DNA from: Pseudomonas sp. KU43P
Lineage (GTDB): Bacteria > Pseudomonadota > Gammaproteobacteria > Pseudomonadales > Pseudomonadaceae
Assembly (NCBI RefSeq): GCF_033095865.1
Contig: NZ_AP019365.1
Coordinates: 5,739,501-5,803,500 of the forward strand
Length of the DNA: 64,000 nucleotides
Reading direction: 5' to 3'
The notes under the pieces were generated by a model that worked only from the letters and a program-made list of their open reading frames with translations, did no database searches and had not been told where the DNA came from. A program made the position numbers and the translations under genes. Positions 27,751-54,687 of this stretch are shown piece by piece; position 1 is the first letter of the stretch; each line of letters starts with the position of its first letter.

Positions 27751-29058
27751 TTGAACCAGAACTGGCACGCGACCCTGATTCGCCACCTGCTGCTGCTCAT
27801 CACCGTCTGCCTGATCGGCGGCCTGGTCAGTGGCTATTACGGCTGGAGCCTGGCCATCGGCCTGGCGCTCTACTTGGGCTGGACCCTCAAGCAGCTGCTG
27901 CGCCTGCATGACTGGCTGCGCAACCACCAGCCCGACGAAGCACCGCCCGATGGCTACGGCCTGTGGGGCGAAGTGTTCGACAGCATCTACCACCTGCAAC
28001 GCCGCGACCAGCGTGTGCGTGGGCGCCTGCAGGCGGTGATCGATCGCGTGCAGGAGTCCACCGCCGCCCTGCGCGACGCGGTGATCATGCTCGACAGCGA
28101 CGGCAACCTGGAATGGTGGAACCGCGCCGCGGAAACCCTGCTCGGCTTCAAGACCCCGCAAGACGGCGGCCAGCCGGTAACCAACCTGGTGCGCCACCCG
28201 CGCTTCAAGGAATACTTCGAGTCGGAAAACTACGCGGAACCGTTGGAAATTCCCTCGCCGATCAACGACCGCATGCGTGTCCAACTGCACCTGACCCGCT
28301 ACGGCAACAACGAACACCTGATGCTGGTGCGTGACGTCACACGCATTCACCAACTCGAACAGATGCGCAAGGACTTCGTGGCCAACGTTTCCCACGAGCT
28401 GCGCACACCGCTGACCGTCATCACCGGCTACCTGGAAACCCTGCTGGACAACGTCGAAGACGTGAACCCGCGCTGGGGCCGGGCCTTGCAGCAGATGAAC
28501 CAGCAAGGCTCGCGTATGCAGACCTTGCTCAACGACCTGCTGTTGCTGGCCAAGCTGGAAGCCACCGACTACCCCTCCGACAACCAGCCAGTCGCTGTCG
28601 ATGGCCTGCTGCAATCGATCTACAGCGATGCCCAAGCGCTGTCCGGGCCACGCAACCAGCGCATCACCCTGGAAGCTACGCCGGGTATCAAGCTCAAGGG
28701 CAGTGAGTCGGAACTGCGCAGTGCCTTCTCCAACCTGGTATTCAACGCGGTCAAGTACACCCAGGACGAAGGCAGCATCCGCATCCGCTGGTGGGCCGAC
28801 GCCCAGGGTGCACACCTGTCGGTGCAGGACTCGGGGGTCGGCATCGATGCCAAACACCTGCCGCGCCTGACCGAACGCTTCTACCGGGTCGATTCCAGCC
28901 GCGCGTCCAACACCGGCGGCACGGGCCTGGGCCTGGCGATCGTCAAGCATGTGCTGATGCGCCACCGGGGCAAGCTGGAAATCAGCAGTGTGCCGGGGCA
29001 CGGCAGTACCTTCACCTGCCACTTTGCGCCCACACAACTGGCCAGCGGCAAGGGTTGA
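27751..29058 (+). CDS. phoR: Phosphate regulon sensor kinase PhoR
   Basis: A 435-residue membrane histidine kinase: two N-terminal TM helices (about 10-45), a PAS domain (about 100-195), HisKA with the phosphorylated His215 (FVANVSHELRTP) and HATPase_c (N box FNAVKY, GTGLGLAI). It phosphorylates PhoB when the Pst/PhoU complex signals low phosphate. I start at TTG 27751, since AAGGA lies seven bases before it and the length matches; a TTG at 27733 has no ribosome site. Confidence 0.95.
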   Translation: MNQNWHATLIRHLLLLITVCLIGGLVSGYYGWSLAIGLALYLGWTLKQLLRLHDWLRNHQPDEAPPDGYGLWGEVFDSIYHLQRRDQRVRGRLQAVIDRVQESTAALRDAVIMLDSDGNLEWWNRAAETLLGFKTPQDGGQPVTNLVRHPRFKEYFESENYAEPLEIPSPINDRMRVQLHLTRYGNNEHLMLVRDVTRIHQLEQMRKDFVANVSHELRTPLTVITGYLETLLDNVEDVNPRWGRALQQMNQQGSRMQTLLNDLLLLAKLEATDYPSDNQPVAVDGLLQSIYSDAQALSGPRNQRITLEATPGIKLKGSESELRSAFSNLVFNAVKYTQDEGSIRIRWWADAQGAHLSVQDSGVGIDAKHLPRLTERFYRVDSSRASNTGGTGLGLAIVKHVLMRHRGKLEISSVPGHGSTFTCHFAPTQLASGKG

Positions 29059-52441: not shown

Positions 52442-53968
52442 TCAGTGCCAAGCATCTCGAAGCCGGGCAACGGCTTGCTGTATTTCCTGTTCCGGGACGG
52501 CAGCAAAACCCAGTACCAATCCTGAACGTAAGCCATCGTTCCCTGGTGAATCCGCGAGCCAATAACTGCTCAAGGCACTTAGCTCAACCCCCACCGCTTC
52601 GGCCTGTTCGATCAACTCCCTTTCGCGAGCGATCCCCTCTACTGGCAGCGTCAGGTGCAGGCCAGCAGCAACCACCGGCATCGCACCGACGCCGGGAATA
52701 TCGCTTGGCCATGCCTTGAGCAAGGCATCGCGCCGAGCCAGGGCCGCCCGCCGCATTCGACGGATGTGCTGCTGGAAATAGCCCTTGATCATGAACTGTG
52801 CCATCACCTGCTGGGTTGAGACCTCCGAATGCCGGACACTCAGTGCCCGAGCCCAGGAAAAGGCCTCCATCAGCGGCCGTGGCAATACCAGGTAGCCAAG
52901 CCGCAGGGCAGGGAAAGCGACCTTGCCGAACGTTCCGACATAAATCACCCGCCCTCCCCGATCCAGCGCCGCCAAAGGCGCCAATGGGGCTCCGCTGTAG
53001 CGGTACTCGCCATCGTAGTCGTCCTCGATCACCCAGCCCTGATTGCGCTGCGCCCAATCCAGCAATGCCAACCGGCGCGGCAGGCTCATGGTGACGCCGG
53101 TGGGGTATTGATGGGCTGGAGTGACATAGGCCAGTCGACAGTGCCTGATCGTGTCGAGCACGGCGCAGTCCAAGCCCTCGTTATCCACAGGCACACCCAC
53201 CACTTGAGCGCCCGCCAGGGCAAATGCATGGCCTGCCGCACGATAGCCGGGGTTTTCCACAGCCACACAGCTGCCCTTCTCCAGCAGCAACTGTGCACAA
53301 AGGCTGATTGCTTGCTGCGCGCCATGGGTGATCACAATTTGCTCAGCACTGCACGTCAACCCACGCGACCTTCGCAGATACGCGGCAATGAGTTCACGCA
53401 ATTCAAGCTCACCGGCTGGATCGCCATAGCCAAGTTTCGACGGATCGGGATTTCGCCAGAAAGCCGCCTGGAGCTTGCCCCAGACGTCGAAAGGGAACAG
53501 ATCGAATGCAGGAATACCCACGCGAAATGCGCGCGGCGCACCCGTTCTGGGTGGCGGCAAATGGTTGGATTTCAGCCGCTCAAGCGACTCGCCGCCTGCT
53601 GCTTCGCTGGATAAATCATCAGTATTCTTGGATGAAAATGTGGATAAAGCTGTTGATAACCCAAGGGATAACCCTGTGGATACTTTTGTGGATAGTTTTT
53701 CCAGTTGGGTGACGTAAGTGCCGTCTCCCACCCGACTCTCGATGAAGCCTTCCGCATAGAGCTGATCGTAGGCCCGCACCACGGTATTGCGAGACAACAC
53801 GAGTACCCGTGCCAGGTCTCGGCTGGCAGGCAGCCGTGTGCCGCTACTGAGCCGACCATCCAGAATCCGCGCTCGCATGGCCTGATAAAGCTGCTGGCTA
53901 AGGCCCCTAGCGGGGTCGAGCGCAATTCCCGAGGGGTCGAAAGGCAGTACGACGGGGCGTTCGCTCAT
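52442..53968 (-). CDS. MocR family (GntR-HTH plus aminotransferase-like) regulator
   Basis: A 508-residue regulator. GntR winged HTH residues ~15-80 (SSGTRLPASRDLARVLVLSRNTVVRAYDQL in parts), a linker (~85-145) with six 4-residue repeats of the form LST-x, and a fold-type-I aminotransferase domain (~150-508) with the PLP Lys in TFGKVAFPALRLGYLV. MocR proteins use PLP plus an amino compound as effector. Divergent from paiB, which is a likely target. The linker DNA is an array of DnaA-box-like 9-mers with a 12-bp period. Confidence 0.9.
   Translation of the reverse strand: MSERPVVLPFDPSGIALDPARGLSQQLYQAMRARILDGRLSSGTRLPASRDLARVLVLSRNTVVRAYDQLYAEGFIESRVGDGTYVTQLEKLSTKVSTGLSLGLSTALSTFSSKNTDDLSSEAAGGESLERLKSNHLPPPRTGAPRAFRVGIPAFDLFPFDVWGKLQAAFWRNPDPSKLGYGDPAGELELRELIAAYLRRSRGLTCSAEQIVITHGAQQAISLCAQLLLEKGSCVAVENPGYRAAGHAFALAGAQVVGVPVDNEGLDCAVLDTIRHCRLAYVTPAHQYPTGVTMSLPRRLALLDWAQRNQGWVIEDDYDGEYRYSGAPLAPLAALDRGGRVIYVGTFGKVAFPALRLGYLVLPRPLMEAFSWARALSVRHSEVSTQQVMAQFMIKGYFQQHIRRMRRAALARRDALLKAWPSDIPGVGAMPVVAAGLHLTLPVEGIARERELIEQAEAVGVELSALSSYWLADSPGNDGLRSGLVLGFAAVPEQEIQQAVARLRDAWH
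53627..53695 (-). repeat. Six 12-bp tandem units with DnaA-box-like 9-mers
   Basis: Reading the minus strand, 9-mers at starts 53695, 53683, 53671, 53659, 53647 and 53635 are CTATCCACA, GTATCCACA, TTATCCCTT, TTATCAACA, TTATCCACA and TCATCCAAG, each separated by 3 bp. TTATCCACA is the DnaA-box consensus and two others differ by one base. Each 12-bp unit is also one 4-residue repeat of the MocR linker. A further TTATCCAGC is at 53614-53606. Confidence 0.75.
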
Positions 53969-54057
53969 GGCATTGGACCTATGAAATAAGCCTTGAATGG
54001 ATCTTACAAAGAGCCAATAGCCTGCCTAGGATGAAACCATTCGACAAGGAAAACGCC

Positions 54058-54687
54058 ATGTACAACAGCAAGCCCCATCAGGAACACGACCTGCGCCGTC
54101 TGCATCAGCACATGCTCGACACCCGCCTGGCCGTGCTGGTCAGCCACGGCGAGCAGGGCTTGCTGGCGACTCACCTACCGGTGCTGGTCGACACCGCCGA
54201 AGGCGAATTCGGTACCGTCTACGCTCACCTGGCACGCGCCAATCGCCAATGGCAAGACCTGGAACGCGCAAGTGAAGCAATGCTGGTGTTTCCCGGCCCC
54301 GACGCCTATGTCAGCCCCAGCTACTACCCCAGCAAGGCGGAGAATCCCAGGGTGGTACCGACCTGGAACTACCTGGCCGTGCACGCCTATGGCCCGGCCG
54401 AGGTGATTCACGAATCTGCGCCGCTGCTGGACATCGTCAGCCGGCTGACCGACCGCCATGAGCAAGGCCGCAGCCAGCCGTGGAAAGTGGACGACGCGCC
54501 CAGCGACTACCTTGAAGGCATGCTCCGCGCCATCGTCGGTATCCGCCTGCCAATCGCCCGCCTGCAAGGCGCCCGCAAGCTCAGCCAGAACCGTTCGGCG
54601 CAAGACATCGCCGGCGTTCGTGAAGGGTTGAGCAGCAGCCCCGATTACTTCGACAACCAACTCGCGGCGCAGATGCGCCAACTCTGA
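54058..54687 (+). CDS. PaiB-family FMN-binding regulator-like protein
   Basis: A 209-residue split-barrel flavin-binding protein like B. subtilis PaiB, annotated in many genomes as an FMN-binding negative transcriptional regulator. Motifs: ATHLPVLVD (~40), the ...FPGPDAYVSPSYYPSK segment (~80-95) and VVPTWNYLAVHAYG (~100-113). ATG 54058 (MYNSKPHQEHDLRRLH) fits the family. Divergent from the MocR gene and followed 12 bp later by an acetyltransferase gene; in B. subtilis, PaiA is a polyamine acetyltransferase encoded next to PaiB. Confidence 0.88.
   Translation: MYNSKPHQEHDLRRLHQHMLDTRLAVLVSHGEQGLLATHLPVLVDTAEGEFGTVYAHLARANRQWQDLERASEAMLVFPGPDAYVSPSYYPSKAENPRVVPTWNYLAVHAYGPAEVIHESAPLLDIVSRLTDRHEQGRSQPWKVDDAPSDYLEGMLRAIVGIRLPIARLQGARKLSQNRSAQDIAGVREGLSSSPDYFDNQLAAQMRQL

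Follow-up and report, generated by a model that had tools for sequence, protein, structure and literature searches.

An array of DnaA boxes conserved as DNA inside a Pseudomonas mocR gene is a likely origin-proximal site of DnaA titration

Outside Escherichia coli and Bacillus, little is known of how bacteria restrict replication to one initiation per cycle. In Bacillus subtilis, DnaA-box clusters (DBCs) close to oriC are proposed to titrate DnaA, and their function is reported to be reduced when they are moved to the terminus (PMC5010248). The E. coli datA locus is described as non-coding and as working with IHF (PMC12371093, PMC13036160); it is weaker near the terminus, where a second copy restores function (PMC5010248). 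Experimental support for titration in E. coli is described as only recent (PMC12371093). At a smaller scale, E. coli double DnaA boxes separated by a 2- or 3-bp gap are reported to bind DnaA cooperatively, and one added base pair greatly lowers the binding (PMC11317965).

The window analysed here, a stretch of 64,000 nucleotides, covers bases 5,739,501-5,803,500 of a single-contig Pseudomonas genome of 5,869,691 bp (G000), and holds the features listed in Table 1. The host protein scored 432.9 bits against the NCBIfam model NF052282 (PdxR; cut-off 320) and contains both a GntR and an aminotransferase domain, as a MocR/PdxR-type regulator does. With dnaA at bases 116-1627 of this genome, the window coordinates place the array about 76.6 kb before dnaA, in agreement with the first-pass annotation, which had put the distance to the origin at less than about 100 kb. 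The 12-bp period leaves 3-bp gaps, a spacing within that of the E. coli double box; unlike the double box, the array comprises five to six successive units, mostly near-consensus, and is intragenic. Read in frame, it encodes LSTK-VSTG-LSLG-LSTA-LSTF-SSKN in the linker that joins these two domains of the host protein.

Table 1. Coordinates of the DnaA-box array, its host gene and neighbouring features in the window.
Feature	Coordinates	Strand	Evidence or remark
MocR-type regulator, host gene, 508 aa, GntR + aminotransferase fold	52442..53968	-	NF052282 match
PaiB-like FMN-binding protein (PF04299), divergent neighbour, context only	54031..54687	+	domain match
Tandem array of six DnaA-box-like 9-mers, 12-bp period, 3-bp gaps, one orientation	53627..53695	-	
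Box CTATCCACA	53687..53695	-	sequence match
Box GTATCCACA	53675..53683	-	sequence match
Degenerate box TTATCCCTT	53663..53671	-	sequence match
Box TTATCAACA	53651..53659	-	same variant just before dnaA, G000 5869583
Exact box TTATCCACA	53639..53647	-	sequence match
Degenerate box TCATCCAAG	53627..53635	-	sequence match
Further degenerate box TTATCCAGC, 21 bp off the array	53606..53614	-	
Exact TTATCCACA elsewhere in host gene	53181..53189	+	exact at this column in only 4/117 array-bearing orthologues

Every one of the 9-mers was found where the first-pass annotation had described it. The window contains two copies of the exact word TTATCCACA, each of them in mocR, against a shuffle expectation of 0.17, and at least two exact copies were reached in 1 of 100 window shuffles; the earlier chance figure of about 0.5 per 64 kb is thus an overestimate. 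Boxes with up to one mismatch number 11 in the window, compared with 4.9 expected, and 6 of the 11 lie in mocR. The exact plus-strand copy outside the array is present as annotated, but it is not generally conserved (Table 1).

Conservation of the array was analyzed in a sample of 149 Pseudomonas genomes, 140 of which gave a mocR match; 139 orthologues were read, since 5 of 181 genes (L185, L081, L082, L084 and L103) were dropped for an open frame shorter than 400 aa. Linkers were delimited by alignment-based extraction, and a match with up to one mismatch was counted as a box. The linker carries at least three boxes in 117 of the 139 orthologues and none in 22, with a density of 20.5 boxes per kb, compared with 0.58 per kb in the remainder of the gene. 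Nearly all linker boxes (532/534) share one orientation, along transcription, and 200 neighbouring pairs in the 117 linkers are spaced at 12 bp. The first-pass annotation had held that repeats varying between close strains, with the 9-mers lost, would speak against a function of the DNA; the linker comparison revealed the opposite, with the boxes retained.

Each of the 117 linkers was then recoded 100 times with random synonymous codons drawn from the usage of its own gene, keeping the peptide. The linkers contain 231 exact boxes, compared with a mean of 1.1 after recoding, and 534 near boxes, compared with a mean of 23.0, and the real number exceeded all 100 recodings in 117 of 117 genomes. 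Within boxes, Leu is encoded by TTA/CTA in 342 of 359 cases (6% elsewhere in the genes), Val by GTA in 60 of 60 (8%) and Thr by ACA in 410 of 414 (14%), counts that are partly circular because the boxes were chosen by sequence, a circularity from which the recoding test and the V-I-H counts given next are free. An additional box in another reading frame is found in 95 of the 117 array genomes (exact in 89 of the 95), mostly 46 bp past the preceding box, where it is read as V-I-H. The 91 V-I-H motifs in array linkers were located by peptide, independently of box sequence. Their Val is GTT in 91/91 (7% elsewhere in the genes), their Ile ATC in 91/91 (62%) and their His CAC in 90/91 (40%). The residue after the motif is not fixed (Ser, Asn, Arg, Thr, Lys or Gly), and its codon starts with A, the base completing the box, in 89/91. 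What LST-x and V-I-H have in common is a DNA word, not a peptide. By these sequence comparisons, the linker boxes are conserved as DNA far past the need of the protein, in two reading frames (L-S-T and V-I-H).

Outside the linker, two more columns of the gene, near residues 442 and 477 of the window protein, show recurrent exact boxes on the other strand, shared by 20 and 28 of the 117 array-bearing orthologues, respectively; the 22 array-less orthologues contain no exact boxes outside the linker. Three frame-broken mocR copies retain boxes at array-like steps: L180 (G034) has 2 exact boxes, L311 (G384) has 1 exact linker box, and L185 (G146) has near boxes only. These are consistent with selection on DNA, with assembly error as a possible source of the broken frames.

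A five-unit array pattern (up to 3 mismatches) was matched in 304 of 398 genomes of the genus, counted genome-wide inside or outside mocR, and its reversed counterpart in 0 of 398. A shorter exact tandem pair was found in 94 of 149 genomes, compared with 2 matches for the reversed pattern (again counted genome-wide). Sixteen more orthologues, mostly from genomes missed by the pattern despite having mocR, were read, and revealed 10 with 4-5 boxes and 6 with none, bringing all orthologues read to 155, with the array in 127 and no array in 28. A single clade (support 1.0) takes in 25 of the 28; its members are divergent, and their linkers are mostly Ala/Pro-rich. In that lineage the site is therefore dispensable, and since several of its members lie only 60-125 kb from dnaA, nearness alone is insufficient for the array. 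The remaining three array-less orthologues are those of G129, G264 and G274. In G008, a genome whose mocR lacks the array, an identical tandem pair TATCCACAGGCTTATCCACA occurs at C1:101152 and C1:1888623 (L291 and L290), the second about 35 kb from dnaA.

Distances to dnaA were obtained for 76 array genomes, read or pattern-positive, with mocR and dnaA on one contig of usable size; some of the coordinates are those of mocR, and genomes in which dnaA sits near base 1 of a contig of unstated size were left out. In this set the median distance is 88 kb, and 74 of the 76 arrays lie within 200 kb. The two beyond, in G094 (274 kb) and G029 (1,335 kb), both have the array. The G029 gene sits amid frequent TTATCCACAG sites; G029 therefore cannot separate the hypotheses, and it was set aside as a counter-example.

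Further exceptions were sought through misses of the array pattern, so that distant copies with intact arrays are under-sampled in the comparison that follows. Positions were listed for part of the pattern matches, and relocated copies with intact arrays may therefore have gone unnoticed. In G129, mocR (C3:47,462) and dnaA (C3:2,157,964) are separated by 2.11 Mb; in G264, a single contig of 7.0 Mb with dnaA at base 4, mocR lies at 2.32 Mb; in G274, the two genes are on different contigs, hence the distance is measured in only two distant genomes. No linker boxes remain in any of the three. Outside the linker, these proteins retain 90.5% (G129), 88.2% (G264) and 88.8% (G274) identity to 13 array-bearing sisters, which are 90.5% identical among themselves; the linkers are 64%, 54% and 54% identical, respectively, compared with 82% among the sisters. 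The neighbour order HDAC, SBP, mocR, paiB, GNAT, GNAT is retained in all three. In G264, TTATCCACAG is missing from 1.98 to 5.63 Mb, the zone containing mocR. The MocR tree suggests two separate losses (G129; G264 with G274), with low support, and was given no weight.

The converse case is provided by G043, in which no mocR was matched at 1e-150, yet the array pattern was. The locus retains oadA-GNAT2-GNAT1, and no paiB was detected across the 400 kb that were read. Within the 7-kb locus, the sole mocR match below E 0.01 covers residues 84-114, that is, the array itself (E 0.003). The stretch contains three boxes of at most one mismatch each, which follow one another by 12 and 36 bp, and 27 bp of it match the mocR gene of this window at 96%. 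It lies at 158,054 on contig C21, 53 kb from dnaA (C21:103,136-104,605). Across the 400 kb, TTATCCACA occurs exactly 26 times, compared with 0 for the reversed word; three boxes within 70 bp are found beside dnaA and at the array but nowhere else; and, besides the array, a single mocR hit reached E<=1e-10, from a distant paralogue (26% identity). Since the neighbours are shared, mocR was presumably lost from G043 rather than never present.

The array also belongs to a wider pattern. Exact TTATCCACA occurs 106 times in G000, compared with 13 for the reversed word, and the origin half contains 102 of the 106 copies (52 of 56 when copies within 5 kb are counted as one, p ~1e-11), with none between 1.05 and 3.52 Mb. 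Similarly, the word is absent from G015 between 2.06 and 4.11 Mb among the 100 listed of 133 sites. Further stretches of 1-3 kb in which 5-12 exact or near boxes cluster, mostly within open frames, were found at 0.619-0.621, 0.710, 5.201-5.203, 5.512-5.515 and 5.811-5.813 Mb (L161-L164 and L160), with more near dnaA. Because such clusters dot the origin side, the mocR array is one ordered member of a broader group of boxes there.

Nearest to dnaA, eight boxes with up to one mismatch, including TTATCAACA, occupy 5869437-5869651 (L159), about 0.25 kb just before the gene; this stretch is probably oriC. Another dense stretch of boxes lies at 5.862-5.867 Mb. Another tandem pair recurs about 27-34 kb past dnaA on the other side, with TTATCAACA or TTACCCACA followed by TTATCCACA at a 12-bp step (G000 27801-27821, L157; G015:C1:28829, L286; G003:C1:1483051, L287). 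In several further genomes, among them those of L294 and L295, the tandem pair was matched on the mocR contig, 80-140 kb away from the gene.

We propose that the mocR linker array, conserved as DNA and near dnaA in 74 of 76 genomes, binds and titrates DnaA, a reading to which we assign a probability of roughly two thirds. DnaA binding, and the sign and size of the effect on initiation, are what we infer from the sequence. In the proposed pathway, DnaA molecules would bind next to one another on neighbouring boxes, as on the double boxes of E. coli. Since the array would be copied soon after initiation, box number would double early, and the doubled boxes would draw DnaA away from oriC, or accelerate the turnover of ATP-DnaA in the manner of datA, damping premature re-initiation. 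With this early doubling lost far from the origin, the boxes would come under relaxed selection and decay. Boxes that are kept near the origin, missing far off and indifferent to their host gene fit such early-doubling titration.

The same box evidence would equally serve an array that binds DnaA and promotes initiation, by re-activating it from the ADP to the ATP form in the manner of DARS or by aiding orisome assembly remotely, and the sign of the effect is unreadable from sequence. E. coli DARS1 is reported to have little location preference, and DARS2 to function at many sites other than near terC (PMC5010248), whereas the array is strongly tied to the origin side, and we regard an initiation-promoting role as unlikely. 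It is similarly doubtful that DnaA is not the main ligand and that another protein, one that marks or organises the origin half, reads the same word. The spread of the word over the whole origin half, beyond the vicinity of oriC, would suit such a protein, but the word equals the DnaA consensus, the E. coli DnaA pair has the same 3-bp gap (PMC11317965), and eight boxes stand just before dnaA in G000.

DnaA is a known transcription regulator, and boxes placed inside mocR along transcription could, as the first-pass annotation had considered conceivable, allow it to control mocR or its divergent neighbour paiB; a roadblock within the gene would be one such mechanism. Such regulation is not favoured, and appears very improbable, because the array is gone from G129, G264 and G274 with synteny intact and is present in G043, whose 400 kb of sequence read revealed neither gene. 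The suggestion of simple repeat expansion, or of a selected LST-x peptide linker with the DNA pattern as a by-product, draws on a period equal to four codons, on LST-like units and on the tolerance of linkers for repeats, but is hardly tenable, with simple tandem-repeat expansion ruled out by the recoding test and the box in a second reading frame, the divergent and distant orthologues keeping the rest of the protein without LST repeats, and the G043 array persisting without the gene.

Taking the titration reading together with the genomic context, we judge it somewhat better than an even chance that much of Pseudomonas has a dedicated origin-proximal DnaA titration locus inside the coding sequence of an unrelated regulator, in which a DNA timer, rather than the protein, dictates the linker codons in two frames. 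This locus would decay away from the origin, outlive its gene and form one node of an origin-confined box landscape, and would be the first datA-type locus recognised in Pseudomonas. In the open-licence literature, covered in part through titles and the first lines of abstracts, we found neither a Pseudomonas DnaA titration locus or array nor a description of origin-side DnaA-box enrichment in the genus. The site is compact and conserved, and synonymous recoding could remove it with the protein intact, which would open the titration model to a direct test in Pseudomonas. It is, in addition, a remarkably clear example of how a DNA function tied to chromosomal position can shape a coding sequence, one for which relocated copies and a genome lacking the gene serve as natural controls.

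Among described systems, accumulation of DnaA boxes around oriC, with a proposed titration role, is also reported for E. coli and Salmonella (PMC12371093), in a paper whose main text does not contain the word Pseudomonas; unlike in that case, the exact word here is nearly confined to the origin half (102/106). The array resembles the B. subtilis DBCs in that several DnaA boxes are packed close to oriC (PMC5010248), and differs from them in being a strict 12-bp tandem that is coding and spans two reading frames, with titration presumed. As regards position, the comparison is an evolutionary one only, with no boxes in G129 and G264 (2.1 and 2.3 Mb) and boxes kept in G029 (1.33 Mb). With E. coli datA the array shares the character of an origin-side DnaA-box cluster (76.6 kb from dnaA here; median 88 kb over 76 genomes). 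Unlike datA, it is coding, within the mocR frame, and was found outside a mocR gene only in G043. The datA-like titration raised by the first-pass annotation is supported by the conservation as DNA, the nearness to dnaA, the absence beyond 2 Mb and the persistence without the gene, but not by the strict IHF consensus WATCAANNNNTTR, which occurs in 0 of 117 array linkers, a count of the strict form only, since degenerate IHF sites may occur. Membership in datA was not assigned to an array that is coding and whose 117 linkers do not contain the strict IHF consensus. By analogy with these systems, the array is likely an origin-proximal DnaA titration locus, like the DnaA-box clusters of B. subtilis or datA of E. 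coli, set inside a coding sequence.
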